Shown here piece by piece: positions 2 to 6,961 of a stretch of 64,000 nucleotides of DNA. The position numbers and the translations under genes are program-made. Positions within the stretch are counted from its first letter, which is position 1; each line of letters begins with the position of its first letter. Source of the DNA: Woeseiaceae bacterium (GTDB lineage: Bacteria > Pseudomonadota > Gammaproteobacteria > Steroidobacterales > Woeseiaceae); the NCBI GenBank assembly GCA_030066735.1, contig JASJBB010000007.1, positions 1 to 64,000 on the forward strand, written 5' to 3'. The notes under the pieces were generated by a model that had not been told where the DNA came from, made no database searches, and was given only the letters and a program-made list of their open reading frames with translations.

Positions 2-520
2 GCCAATCACGACGACGCGATCGCGTTGACAACGCTGTGCAAGGCCGGGGCATGGCCGCTGAACGTGGTCGTGGCCATCACGGCCACGGGGCCGAAGCCC
101 GTCGGTTCGACCGAGGCCATGGAGACCAGCCGGGCAACGTCGCCTTTTTATGCCCGCTGGGTGGAGCAGCAGCAGGCAGACCTCGACGAGGCGCGCGACG
201 CCATCCGGTCCCGGGATTTTGCCCGGCTGGCAGCGGTCGCCGAGCACAACTGTCTGAAGATGCACTCGGTCATGTGGGCCAGCCGGCCGCCGATGGTCTA
301 TTGGAACGCAACGACGCTCGAGTGCATGGAAGCGGTCCGCCGGATGCAGGCGGACGGGGTGCCAGTGTTCTTCACGATCGACGCCGGGCCGCAACTCAAA
401 GCGGTCTGCGAGCCTGCGGCGGTCGACACGGTACGTGAGCGGCTGGCGGCGACGCCGGGCGTGGAGGCCGTCATGGTGACGGGTCTTGGCCGCGGCGCCA
501 GGCTGATTGACGATGAGTGA
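2..520 (+). CDS. mvaD: Diphosphomevalonate decarboxylase, C-terminal part (5' end outside window)
   Basis: Open from window edge; motifs STEAMETSRATSPFYARWV, CLKMHSVMWASRPPMVYWNATTLECMEAV, FFTIDAGPQLKAV typical of GHMP-family MvaD; next to other mevalonate genes. Confidence 0.9.
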   Translation, partial: ANHDDAIALTTLCKAGAWPLNVVVAITATGPKPVGSTEAMETSRATSPFYARWVEQQQADLDEARDAIRSRDFARLAAVAEHNCLKMHSVMWASRPPMVYWNATTLECMEAVRRMQADGVPVFFTIDAGPQLKAVCEPAAVDTVRERLAATPGVEAVMVTGLGRGARLIDDE

Positions 521-1514
521 ACGAATCACCGCCAGCGCGCCGGGCAAGGTCGTGCTCTCCGGCGAGTACGCGGTACTCGAGGGCGCCCCGGCGGTCTGCA
601 TGGCCGTCAACCGGCGCGCCGTCGTGGTAATCGCAGAGACAAGCGAAGACCACCACGTCGTCGTCGCGCCCGGCCATGTCGACGAGCCGCGGCGCTTCCG
701 GATTCGCGACGACGCCTTCGACTGGATTGACGCAAGCGATGAGTTCAAGTTGCTCGAACACGCCTGGCGCGCCAGCGGCATTAGCCGGCAGGGCGGCCTG
801 TCGCTGCGCCTCGAAACGGGTGCTTTCCTCGATCGGGAGCGTGGCCGGAAAATCGGAGTCGGCTCGAGCGCGGCGCTGTCGGTAGCGCTCGCGTCTGCAC
901 TCGGCGAGCTGAAGCCGGGCCAGCGCGATCCGATGACCGTCGCGCACGCAAGCCATCTCGATTTCCAGGGCGGCCGGGGCAGTGGTGTCGATATCGCCAC
1001 ATCGGGCATGGGCGGACTGGTCGAGTACCGCATGGCGGACCGGGCGGCATCGCGGCTGTCGATGCCCGCCGGGCTCGAGTACCGGCTGATCTGGAGCGGC
1101 TCACCGGCGAGTACCCACAGGAAACTGGAACACCTGTCCGGCATCGACCCGCAAGCGTCAGTCGCTGCACTGGGCTCCTCGGCGCAGCGCATGGCCAGCG
1201 CCTGGGAAAGCGGATCGGCCAGCGAAGTGCTCAACGGCTATCGTGACTACATCGAGACTCTGCAGGTGTTCAGCGCCGACCATGGTCTTGGCGTCTTCGA
1301 TGCCGGCCACGAGGAGCTGACGGCCAGGGCCGCTCGTGCCGGCCTCGTCTACAAGCCCTGCGGCGCGGGCGGCGGCGACATCGGCGTCCTGATGTCCGAC
1401 AATGCCGCAAGCGCTGACGAGTTCATCGCGAAATCGGTGCCCGATGGTTTTCGGTTGCTCGACCTGCAACTCGATGAGCAGGGCGCACAGGTGCAGAGGG
1501 TTTCGAATGAGTAA
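513..1514 (+). CDS. Phosphomevalonate kinase (GHMP kinase family)
   Basis: ITASAPGKVVLSGEYAVLEGAPAVCMAVNRRA, GVGSSAALSVALASAL, KPCGAGGGDIGV; ATG at 513 overlaps mvaD stop. Confidence 0.85.
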   Translation: MSERITASAPGKVVLSGEYAVLEGAPAVCMAVNRRAVVVIAETSEDHHVVVAPGHVDEPRRFRIRDDAFDWIDASDEFKLLEHAWRASGISRQGGLSLRLETGAFLDRERGRKIGVGSSAALSVALASALGELKPGQRDPMTVAHASHLDFQGGRGSGVDIATSGMGGLVEYRMADRAASRLSMPAGLEYRLIWSGSPASTHRKLEHLSGIDPQASVAALGSSAQRMASAWESGSASEVLNGYRDYIETLQVFSADHGLGVFDAGHEELTARAARAGLVYKPCGAGGGDIGVLMSDNAASADEFIAKSVPDGFRLLDLQLDEQGAQVQRVSNE

Positions 1515-3639
1515 TTCCCCCATCCGGGGCTTTTACAAGTTGACCGTTGCCGAGCGGATAGAACGACTGGCCCGCGACCGGTGGCTTGCCGAGTCCGATG
1601 CGGAGCTTTTGCGGCAGGGCCGCTACGTGCTGCCGGCCGCTGCCGCAGACCGCATGATCGAGAATGCGCTCGGCGTCTTTGGATTGCCGTTTGCCGTGGC
1701 GCCAAACTTCCTCGTCAATGGGCGAGAGCACCTGGCCGCGATGGCCATCGAGGAACCTTCGGTCGTGGCAGGGTTGAGCATGGCGGCGTCACTGGCGCGC
1801 AAAACAGGCGGGTTCGAGGCGGCCTGTGATGAGTCGTTGCTGATCGGCCAGGTGCACGTGTCGGCCATTACCGATGTCAATGCCGCCGTGAAGGACGTGG
1901 CTGAGGCTCGCGAGGCGCTGCTGCGTCTATGCAACGATGTGCACCCGCGCCTTGTCGAACGTGGCGGCGGCGCCCGCGATATCGAGGTCCGGGCACTCGA
2001 GTTGGCCAATGGCGAAGCGGTCATCGCAGTACACATTCTCGTCGATACCTGCGACGCGATGGGGGCGAACCTGGTCAACTCGATCTGCGAAGCAGCTGCG
2101 CCGCGCATCGCCGAAGTGTGTGGTGGCAAAATCGCTTTACGCATCCTGTCCAATCTCGCCGATCGCTCCGTGGTGCGATGCCGTGTGCGCTACCGGCTCG
2201 CCGACGACGTTCGCGACGGCATCGTGCTCGCCAGCGAAATAGCGAGCGCCGATCCGCATCGTGCGGCGACACACAACAAGGGCATCATGAACGGCATCGA
2301 TGCGGTTGCCATTGCTACCGGCAACGACTGGCGCGCTATCGAGGCAGGGGCGCACGCTTACGCCGCGCGCGGCGGCCACTACGCGCCGCTCGCGACGTGG
2401 TCGGCGGACGACGACGGCATGCTCGCCGGGGAAATCGAAATCCCGCTCAAGGTCGGCACGGTCGGCGGCAATCTCGGTGCCAATCCTGGCGCGGCACTGG
2501 GCCTGGATCTATGTGGCGTGGCGTCTGCCATGGAGCTTGCCGAACTCATGGCGGCAGTCGGTCTGGCGCAGAATTTCGCGGCGCTGCGTGCGCTGGCCAC
2601 GAGCGGCATACAGGAAGGTCACATGAAGCTGCATGCGCGCAGCGTGGCAAGCAGCGCCGACGTTCCCGAGGAGCTGTTCGACGATGTCGTCAACGAGCTG
2701 ATCGCAAGCGGCGACATCAAGGTCTGGAAGGCGCGCGAGATCGTGAAGCAACGCCAGGCATCGCGTGCCGGGAAAAAACCGGATGGAATCGCAGCTGGCA
2801 AGGTCATCCTGCTCGGCGAGCACGCCGTCGTCTACGGTAAACACGCGCTGGCGGTACCGGTGGCCGATGCCGTGGCGGCATTCGTCCGGGAAACTTCGGC
2901 CGCAACGGAGCCCGCCATTCCCGAACTCGAAACGGGCATCACGCTGATCCGCGACAAGCTGGGAATTACGGACGAATATTCAGTCGACGTTCGTTCACGC
3001 CTGCCGCTTGCGATGGGCCTGGGCGCGTCGGCCGCCTTCGCCGTGGCGATCACGCGTGCCTTCAACACCAGCCTCGGCCTGGGCCTGGGCGACGAAGCGA
3101 TCAACGAGATTGCCTTCGAGTGCGAGAAACTGGCGCACGGCACGCCGTCCGGCATCGACAACACGATCGCGACGTACGCGACGCCGATGCTGTTTCGCAA
3201 CGATGGCGAGCTCGAGTTGACGTCCGTCGAGATCAGCGCAACGCCACCGATTGTCGTCGCCTGCAGCAGCGAGCGAGGTCTCACAAAGGAAGTGGTTGCC
3301 GGCGTGAAGTCACGACGCGAACACAGCGAAGAACACTACGACGCGATCTTTGCGCAGATGGACCGCCTGAGCCTCGCCGGCGCGGCAGCGCTGGAGCAGG
3401 GCAACTACGAAGAACTCGGCCGCCTGATGAACATTTGCCACGGCCTGTTGGCGGCGATCGAGGTATCGACGCCGGAACTCGACGCCATGGTGTCGATAGC
3501 GCGTTCGGCAGGCGCCGTTGGCGCCAAGCTGACCGGCGCCGGCGGTGGCGGCTCAATGATCGCGCTGTGCCCGGGCTGCGTTGACGAGGTTGCCGCGGCC
3601 CTGCGGGCGTCGGGTTTCCGGACGATGGGCCTGGAATGA
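1507..3639 (+). CDS. Bifunctional HMG-CoA reductase (class II-like) / mevalonate kinase fusion
   Basis: One 710-aa frame from ATG 1507. N-terminal ~420 aa HMGR-like (DAMGANLVNSICEAAAPRI, HNKGIMNGIDAVAIATGNDWRAIEAGAHAYA, GTVGGNLGANPGA, GHMKLHARSVA); C-terminal ~285 aa GHMP kinase (GKVILLGEHAVVYGKHALAVPV, LPLAMGLGASAAFAVAI, GTPSGIDNTIATY, KLTGAGGGGSMIAL). Confidence 0.92.
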   Translation: MSNSPIRGFYKLTVAERIERLARDRWLAESDAELLRQGRYVLPAAAADRMIENALGVFGLPFAVAPNFLVNGREHLAAMAIEEPSVVAGLSMAASLARKTGGFEAACDESLLIGQVHVSAITDVNAAVKDVAEAREALLRLCNDVHPRLVERGGGARDIEVRALELANGEAVIAVHILVDTCDAMGANLVNSICEAAAPRIAEVCGGKIALRILSNLADRSVVRCRVRYRLADDVRDGIVLASEIASADPHRAATHNKGIMNGIDAVAIATGNDWRAIEAGAHAYAARGGHYAPLATWSADDDGMLAGEIEIPLKVGTVGGNLGANPGAALGLDLCGVASAMELAELMAAVGLAQNFAALRALATSGIQEGHMKLHARSVASSADVPEELFDDVVNELIASGDIKVWKAREIVKQRQASRAGKKPDGIAAGKVILLGEHAVVYGKHALAVPVADAVAAFVRETSAATEPAIPELETGITLIRDKLGITDEYSVDVRSRLPLAMGLGASAAFAVAITRAFNTSLGLGLGDEAINEIAFECEKLAHGTPSGIDNTIATYATPMLFRNDGELELTSVEISATPPIVVACSSERGLTKEVVAGVKSRREHSEEHYDAIFAQMDRLSLAGAAALEQGNYEELGRLMNICHGLLAAIEVSTPELDAMVSIARSAGAVGAKLTGAGGGGSMIALCPGCVDEVAAALRASGFRTMGLE

Positions 3640-3652
3640 GAGGGAGCTCCGA

Positions 3653-4228
3653 GTGAACGAACCTAACCGCATCGTCTCTTCCGAGGCCGAAGAGCTGATT
3701 CTCGTCGATACCGACGACAACGAAACCGGATTCCTGTCCAAAGCCGACTGCCACGACGGCGATGGCGTCCTGCACCGGGCGTTTTCGCTGTTCCTGTTCA
3801 ATGACGACGGGGAGTTGCTGCTGCAGCAGCGCAGCGAGTCAAAGCGGCTGTGGCCCGGCTACTGGTCGAATAGCATTTGCAGCCACCCGCGCCGCGGCGA
3901 ATCGATGGCAGTGGCAACACGGCGAAGACTGCTGGACGAGCTGAACATCGAGGCCGAGCTCGAATTCATCTACAAGTTCAATTACCAGGCCGGTTTTGGC
4001 GAGCGCGGCTCCGAGAACGAGTTGTGCCATGTCTACCTCGGCAAAGCGCCGGCCGACATTCGCCCGAACGAGAGCGAGATCTCGGCGGTTCGATTCATCG
4101 CGCCGGCAGAGCTTGACCGCGAGTTTGCAGAAAAACCCGAGTCGCTAACGCCCTGGTTCCGAATGGAATGGCAGGTGTTGTCGACCGACTACCAGGACAG
4201 GCTCCTGGATTACGCCAGCCTCGAGTGA
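3653..4228 (+). CDS. idi: Isopentenyl-diphosphate delta-isomerase, type I (Nudix)
   Basis: GTG start at 3653; GDGVLHRAFSLFLFNDDGELLLQQRSESKRLWPGYWSNSICSHPRRGES. Confidence 0.92.
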   Translation: MNEPNRIVSSEAEELILVDTDDNETGFLSKADCHDGDGVLHRAFSLFLFNDDGELLLQQRSESKRLWPGYWSNSICSHPRRGESMAVATRRRLLDELNIEAELEFIYKFNYQAGFGERGSENELCHVYLGKAPADIRPNESEISAVRFIAPAELDREFAEKPESLTPWFRMEWQVLSTDYQDRLLDYASLE

Positions 4229-5476: not shown

Positions 5477-6961
5477 CTACCCGACGTAGCGGTAATACTC
5501 GATGCCGAGGTCGGCGAAGTGACGCTCGTCGGAGCGGCCGACGCGGTCGATGACGAACTCATTCTGCGGGATGTAATCGATGCCGGTCACGGTGCGGCCG
5601 TCGTGGAGGGCAATGTACTGTTCCTCGGTCAGGTCGATCGCGAACTGCATGGCTTTGCCGAAGCCGATCTTCTGGGTTGCCTCGCGCCAGCTGTCGGCCA
5701 TGAAGAAAGGAATGACCTCTGCGGCATCGCCCGAACCGTAGCCCAGTGTCAGGACCTCTTCGCCGGGCGTAAACGAGTCTTCGTCGAGGCCCTGCTCGAA
5801 ACCGGCGGCCATCCACGCGGGCAGCGCCGCCGTGTAGAGGTTGCCCAGGTCGAGCATGGTGTCCGAGCCGAGCGCCAGCTTGTCGAGGATTTCGCGGCGG
5901 TAGTGCCTTGACCCGCGGAATACGCGCAGGACGGCCATCGTCAGCGGGTACGCCTCGTACTGCAGGCGCTCCGGATTGGCCAGGCTGGCGACATCGGGCT
6001 TGCTCAGCATCTCGGCCGCGAGCGCGTCGGGCTCGATGCCTACCTCGTAACAATACGAAGCCAGCTCCGCGCGATCCTCGGCGTTACCCTGGCTCATGGC
6101 GAACAGGTAGGAGACGGCCCAGCCCGTTTCCGGCATGCGCCGATAGGGACGGTGCAAGAAGATGGTCCTGAGCGAGCGCATGTACTCGGCCGGGTCGAGA
6201 TTGCGCTTGTCGTACATGTCCTTGAGCGCGTGCAGCGTCTCGTCGATGTAGCAGGTCGTCGAATACTTGCCGTTGAAGACCGGGAAGTCCTGCACCTGGT
6301 GCGACTCGGAGCGGTCCTGGCCGCAGAAGCGCAGCATCGGCTTGCGGAAGTCCATGATGCGGTAGTCGGACGCCGAACCCGAGCCGGGCAGGTCGACAAC
6401 CGCGAGCTTGGGATCTTCCTCGAGCAACATCGCGACCGCGCCGGCGCCCTGGGTCGGTTCGCCGCTCGAGCCGCGTGCGTATTCGGCGATATCGGCACAG
6501 ACGACGATCGCCTGGCCGCCGGCCCCGTCGAGGGCCAGGTGGCGGATCGCGCCTTTCATGCCATACACGCCGCCGAGGCACGCGTGCTTGAATTCCGGCA
6601 CCTCGCAGCTGCGGGCAATCGGCGGCTTGCCGCGCGCCTCGAGCGCCCGGTCGACCATGCCCTTGACGATGATCGCGCCGGCCGAGTTATCGGTGCTCGA
6701 CTCGGTGCCCAGCCCCAGGAATTTGACCCGCGTGGGGTCGACGTCGTACTGCTCGATGAGCCGCATGACCGCGGTCGCGGCCATCGTGTAGACACTCTGG
6801 TCGGGCCCGCGGACGCGGAAGCTGCGCCCCACCACCTCGCGGATCTTGGGCCACTGGTTATCGGTCCAGTCGCACCAGTCCTCGAGCCAGACTCGATAGG
6901 GCGGAATATAGGCGGCGAGGCCGCTGACGCCGATATTCTTGATGTTACTGGACATGTTCAT
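5477..6961 (-). CDS. Hydroxymethylglutaryl-CoA synthase
   Basis: GVSGLAAYIPPYRV, GLGTESSTDNSAGA, EVPEFKHACLGGVYGMKGAIR, PVFNGKYSTTCYIDETLHAL, LHRPYRRMPETGWAVSYL. Confidence 0.9.
   Translation of the reverse strand: MNMSSNIKNIGVSGLAAYIPPYRVWLEDWCDWTDNQWPKIREVVGRSFRVRGPDQSVYTMAATAVMRLIEQYDVDPTRVKFLGLGTESSTDNSAGAIIVKGMVDRALEARGKPPIARSCEVPEFKHACLGGVYGMKGAIRHLALDGAGGQAIVVCADIAEYARGSSGEPTQGAGAVAMLLEEDPKLAVVDLPGSGSASDYRIMDFRKPMLRFCGQDRSESHQVQDFPVFNGKYSTTCYIDETLHALKDMYDKRNLDPAEYMRSLRTIFLHRPYRRMPETGWAVSYLFAMSQGNAEDRAELASYCYEVGIEPDALAAEMLSKPDVASLANPERLQYEAYPLTMAVLRVFRGSRHYRREILDKLALGSDTMLDLGNLYTAALPAWMAAGFEQGLDEDSFTPGEEVLTLGYGSGDAAEVIPFFMADSWREATQKIGFGKAMQFAIDLTEEQYIALHDGRTVTGIDYIPQNEFVIDRVGRSDERHFADLGIEYYRYVG

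Follow-up and report, generated by a model that had tools for sequence, protein, structure and literature searches.

An in-frame fusion of HMG-CoA reductase and mevalonate kinase is widespread and very probably bifunctional

Introduction

Flux through the mevalonate pathway is usually controlled at HMG-CoA reductase (HMGR), and mevalonate kinase (MVK) is a point of feedback. In a Woeseiaceae bacterium, one reading frame near the start of the 64,000-nucleotide stretch analyzed here (the window) appears to encode both enzymes. Is the frame a genuine gene, would its product carry out both steps, and what might be gained by joining them? Our data point to a genuine and ancient fusion that is widely distributed and very probably bifunctional. 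The overall reading that we favor, with a probability of roughly 0.88, is a single HMGR-MVK protein for two consecutive steps that arose once and then spread, with 1:1 expression and quick phosphorylation of mevalonate as the probable main gain.

Results

The source is a draft assembly of 3.34 Mb in 173 contigs, at 85% completeness, and the start of the contig cuts into mvaD. The features discussed below are:

2..520, plus strand: mvaD, C-terminal part of diphosphomevalonate decarboxylase (PF18376; TIGR01240 partial)
513..1514, plus strand: pmk, phosphomevalonate kinase (PMK; TIGR01220 best match, 100 bits, below the 165.7 cut-off)
1507..3639, plus strand: HMGR-MVK fusion gene, 710 aa (ATG at 1507; stop ends at 3639)
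1507..2637, plus strand: class II HMGR catalytic domain, residues 1–377 (TIGR00532; phmmer to PmHMGR, 1qax)
2608..2766, plus strand: HMGR C-terminal flap, three helices (368–383, 391–401, and 406–420) with catalytic H372 (AlphaFold2 model; flap definition from PMC10070635)
2746..2787, plus strand: junction KQRQASRAGKKPDG, residues 414–427 (predicted unstructured part only 421–426)
2791..3624, plus strand: MVK domain, residues 429–706 (TIGR00549; Foldseek to M. mazei MVK, 6mde)
3653..4228, plus strand: idi, type 1 isopentenyl-diphosphate isomerase (GTG start; NF002995 and TIGR02150 above cut-off)
5477..6961, minus strand: HMG-CoA synthase (HMGS) homologue, convergent (PF01154/PF08540; TIGR01835 150.7 bits, below cut-off)

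The initial annotation had described an uninterrupted 710-aa frame with HMGR and MVK halves, and this was borne out: no internal stop was seen in the 710 codons from 1507 to 3639 (plus strand), and both halves exceed the cut-offs of their families. In-frame extension upstream to 1402 runs into pmk, and the ATG at 1507, which agrees with the N termini of relatives, was preferred as the start. The pmk gene overlaps mvaD upstream and the fusion gene downstream by 8 bp each, the latter overlap joining the fusion ATG to the pmk stop (ATGAGTAA, 1507–1514), and the idi start (GTG 3653) lies 13 bp past the fusion stop. The operon, with its overlapping genes, has the order mvaD-pmk-fusion-idi, and with the nearby HMGS homologue, every mevalonate-pathway step after acetoacetyl-CoA is represented within 7 kb; because PMK and HMGS do not reach the curated cut-offs, we named them from best matches and context. 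The HMGS homologue is long (494 aa), scores 151 bits against a TIGR01835 cut-off of 360, and represents a divergent subfamily that accompanies the fusion operon within the source family. The overlapping operon mvaD-pmk-fusion-idi is kept across Gammaproteobacteria, Calditrichota, and Acidobacteriota, and mvaD-pmk-fusion is kept in Cryobacterium.

The HMGR half matched TIGR00532 over residues 2–377 (HMMER, 395.3 bits; cut-off, 260) and PF00368 over residues 14–377 (315.7 bits; cut-off, 27). Its E83, K258, D274, and H372 correspond to the catalytic residues E83, K267, D283, and H381 of P. mevalonii HMGR, whose established roles we take to apply here, and are invariant in 87/87 fusions. H146 occupies the NAD(P) specificity position (D146 in P. 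mevalonii), and His is found there in 83 of the 87 fusions. Class II HMGRs that depend on NADH carry Asp at this site and those that depend on NADPH carry Tyr or His (PMC12292504; see also PMC10070635); therefore, judging from this residue, the fusion's HMGR probably uses NADPH. Although TIGR00532 bears the name "degradative," the likely cofactor and the pathway context together point to a biosynthetic enzyme. An MvaE-type fusion was considered and rejected because no thiolase family matches anywhere in the 710 aa and HMGR begins at residue 2.

The MVK half matched TIGR00549 over residues 429–687 (HMMER, 234.7 bits; cut-off, 163), as well as GHMP_N and GHMP_C. K432, E438, H439, S508, E540, and D551 are equivalent to rat MVK K13, E19, H20, S146, E193, and D204, presumably with the roles established for the rat enzyme, and these residues are also invariant in 87/87 fusions. 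The loop reads GLGASAA instead of GLGSSAA; its first Ser position varies among S, G, and A in the fusions, and the second Ser never changes. A hairpin found in most fusions (consensus LxIPRWGVE) is missing from the window's MVK, where it is deleted at 2880–2960 (residues ~460–480), and from several same-genus fusions. The altered loop and the missing hairpin are points against the bifunctional reading. The closest solved structures by sequence were class II HMGRs for residues 3–415 and mevalonate kinases for residues 424–705, and no chain among the matches listed spanned both halves.

Among 149 relatives, 122 matched the query, more than 100 of them as long, unbroken frames. The single frame was recovered at 98 loci. 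Sampling the class evenly yielded the full fusion in 9/369 genomes, with one more truncated by a contig end, and sampling the phylum yielded 2/399. A scan of named genomes, confirmed by ORF and phmmer, found single-ORF fusions in Pseudomonadota (Woeseiaceae, Rhodanobacteraceae [Dyella monticola], Salinisphaera, and Pseudomonadales MAGs) and in Calditrichota, Acidobacteriota, a Planctomycetota MAG, and Actinomycetota (three Cryobacterium isolates, one Cryobacterium MAG, and one Nakamurella MAG). The fusion therefore occurs in at least five phyla; MAG taxon labels may err in single cases, and the set includes isolates. No plasmid record covered 80% of the query, and the plasmid matches listed were stand-alone HMGRs, so a plasmid-borne fusion was rejected.

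A family search of the source genome gave no match to dxr or ispG, with controls positive in 9/14 reference genomes; at 85% completeness, a missing gene is weaker proof. Strong dxr matches were found in 23 of the 149 relatives (a 24th, at 18.6 bits in G088, is noise), and all 23 are without the fusion, which indicates that the MEP pathway and the fusion operon substitute for one another within the order. Fusion and dxr do occur together in three Cryobacterium isolates and, outside that genus, in one Acidobacteriota member and two members of the class (G187, G877, and G899). The fusion is therefore not the sole route everywhere, and we argue for that only in the window's lineage. There, based on the source genome and the 23 dxr-bearing relatives, the operon is very probably the main isoprenoid route and perhaps the sole one. 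The mevalonate operon of the fusion lineages was probably acquired. One member of the same family (G073, 94% complete) had neither fusion nor dxr detected, and one same-genus genome carries a second, stand-alone HMGR (L150 in G046 C28) that has 43% identity to the window's and groups with archaeal sequences.

In the HMGR tree, all 36 sampled fusions formed one clade (SH-aLRT 99), with Myxococcota as the next neighbors and Bacillaceae beyond. The MVK tree was noisier; holding the fusions as one clade was not rejected (p-AU 0.64) and scored slightly better. An unfused hmgr lies directly 5′ of mvk in Bacillaceae and in one Myxococcaceae MAG, where the two genes share a frame with one stop between them. 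Such adjacent pairs are a natural forerunner of the fusion. In a single event, most likely the loss of the stop that separated them, the neighboring genes would have been joined, and the fused gene would then have spread across phyla together with its operon; one fusion event with later operon transfer is the simplest reading. A Lokiarchaeota MAG also has adjacent in-frame hmgr and mvk genes with a single stop between them (L075:4944-7109), and its HMGR ends 12 residues from the G of GHM. The fusion has been kept over very deep divergence (down to 45%–50% identity) with one apparent break, in G132. A junction frameshift had been named at the outset as an observation that would undo the fusion, and the window has none; in G132 (L118, C50), the frame shifts precisely where HMGR meets MVK and the GKVVLL stretch is missing, probably because of an assembly indel, but it could be a real split.

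An AlphaFold2 model of the 710-aa protein, built on an alignment of 41 fusions, had a mean pLDDT of 87.6 and a pTM of 0.71. Foldseek matched its HMGR half to PmHMGR ternary complexes (TMt ~0.9 over 420 residues) and its MVK half to M. mazei MVK (0.84–0.85). The initial annotation had placed a short linker, KQRQASRAGKKPDG, between the halves; its position (2746–2787) stands, but the part predicted to be unstructured is ~6 residues (421–426) and not 14. With each cycle, the flap closes on the active site of HMGR (PMC10070635). Because the flap helices run to residue 420 and the first MVK strand starts at 427, MVK is predicted to hang on this mobile element.

Selection is purifying on both halves and relaxed at the junction, which is the least conserved part (pN/pS 0.42–0.97 versus about 0.27–0.45 in the halves). 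The distance from the catalytic His to the equivalent of MVK Lys13 is mostly 57–75 residues, with up to 126 in other lineages. In seven same-genus genomes (G001, G031, G032, G040, G049, G051, and G071), flap helices 2–3 have been lost, the first helix with the catalytic His is kept, and only about 27–31 residues separate that His from MVK; flap-trimmed loci are L158–L163, L165, L031, and L035. A single origin of the flap loss was borderline in a tree test (p-AU 0.06), and the helices were possibly lost up to three times independently. Among stand-alone class II-type HMGRs whose C terminus could be read, a tail of ~46–62 residues is kept in all but one, which comes from a Lokiarchaeota MAG. The kinase or linker may thus make the large flap dispensable in the fusion.

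These observations bear differently on how the halves might cooperate. Independent enzymes may have been tied together neutrally or as a convenience of expression, for co-translation and equal dose and with no catalytic coupling, which we regard as reasonably probable. The linker is variable and evolves fast compared with the domains (pN/pS about 0.3), and the progenitor gene order exists unfused in Bacillaceae and Myxococcaceae; retention over such deep divergence, even though operon overlap alone could equalize dose, is harder to reconcile with mere convenience. The alternative is a channeling or allosteric machine, in which MVK docks on the flap and opening, which releases product, hands over mevalonate or is gated by MVK. 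The very short unstructured link to the last flap helix, the loss of helices 2–3 as if MVK or the linker had taken over, and the retention of the tail by nearly all stand-alone enzymes are consistent with it, but the junction of the flapless variant was predicted to be disordered (block pLDDT 36–53; pTM 0.61) with no defined docking, the long and very variable linkers of other lineages argue against precise geometry, and mevalonate, a small, polar, and stable molecule, hardly needs channeling. We consider such a machine unlikely, and more doubtful still is its specific form, in which MVK is mounted on the catalytic flap, takes the released mevalonate, and has replaced helices 2–3 in some Woeseiaceae-type lineages. 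Plain co-expression and proximity are likelier than channeling.

Separate action of the two enzymes, through post-translational cleavage of a polyprotein or an internal start for MVK, is very improbable: the linker is basic and the window has an in-frame GTG 19 codons ahead of MVK K432, but nothing resembling a Shine-Dalgarno (SD) sequence accompanies this GTG, start positions are not conserved (SD-like stretches occur in 6/87), and the junction lacks the conservation expected of a cleavage site. Two genes joined by an assembly artifact or frameshift, a concern raised by the 173-contig draft, can be dismissed for the fusion family because the single frame recurs across the 98 loci, in assemblies that many projects made independently, some of them from cultured strains of Dyella and Cryobacterium, with purifying selection on both halves.

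Discussion

The natural bifunctional reading proposed by the initial annotation is strongly supported by family matches, invariant active sites, operon context, and distribution. We infer the catalytic activity of both halves, the cofactor, and the benefit as follows: the HMGR half would reduce HMG-CoA to mevalonate, probably with NADPH; the MVK half would phosphorylate mevalonate with ATP; and the main gain would probably be fixed 1:1 expression and quick phosphorylation near the point of mevalonate release.

What is new is the domain architecture, the component enzymes being known. The initial annotation had asked whether such a fusion was already widely characterized; our search of the accessible literature found neither a characterization nor a published HMGR-MVK fusion, and no description of one was found in PMC13001223 or PMC13370337. 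One of two "HMGR-MK" matches proved to be an engineered gene string and not a natural fusion.

A long-conserved natural fusion offers a ready test of whether fusing consecutive enzymes alters flux, and it could serve as a part in terpene engineering. Its presence also marks lineages, among them marine Woeseiaceae-like Gammaproteobacteria, in which a mevalonate operon replaced the MEP pathway. Annotation that halts at TIGR00532 would label the protein a degradative HMGR and miss the kinase. The class II flap is larger than that of class I, with a significance stated to be unclear (PMC10070635), and the flapless variants bear on this difference. If the coupling were true, the protein would be a new kind of integrated HMG-CoA-to-phosphomevalonate enzyme.

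The fusion shares its fold, four catalytic residues, and three-helix flap with the class II HMGRs of P. mevalonii, Delftia, and Streptococcus pneumoniae, but it adds a C-terminal MVK, sits in a biosynthetic context, and has His at the cofactor site where the NADH enzymes have Asp. In the flapless fusions, only the first flap helix, which bears the catalytic His, remains, a state that resembles class I HMGR. With M. mazei MVK (6mde) and MKbur (8teb), the fusion shares the GHMP fold, all ligands tested, and ~31% identity; unlike bacterial and archaeal MVKs, its kinase is not free-standing, its first strand follows directly after HMGR, and the window's copy is without the hairpin. MvaE of Enterococcus, an acetyl-CoA acetyltransferase-HMGR fusion, is likewise a natural in-frame fusion of HMGR with an enzyme of the same pathway, but its partner is an N-terminal thiolase and its steps are non-consecutive, whereas the partner here is a C-terminal MVK. 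IspDF, a fusion of the MEP pathway mentioned in a 2026 review (PMC13001223), is also a bifunctional enzyme of isoprenoid precursor synthesis, but it belongs to the other pathway and joins non-consecutive steps.
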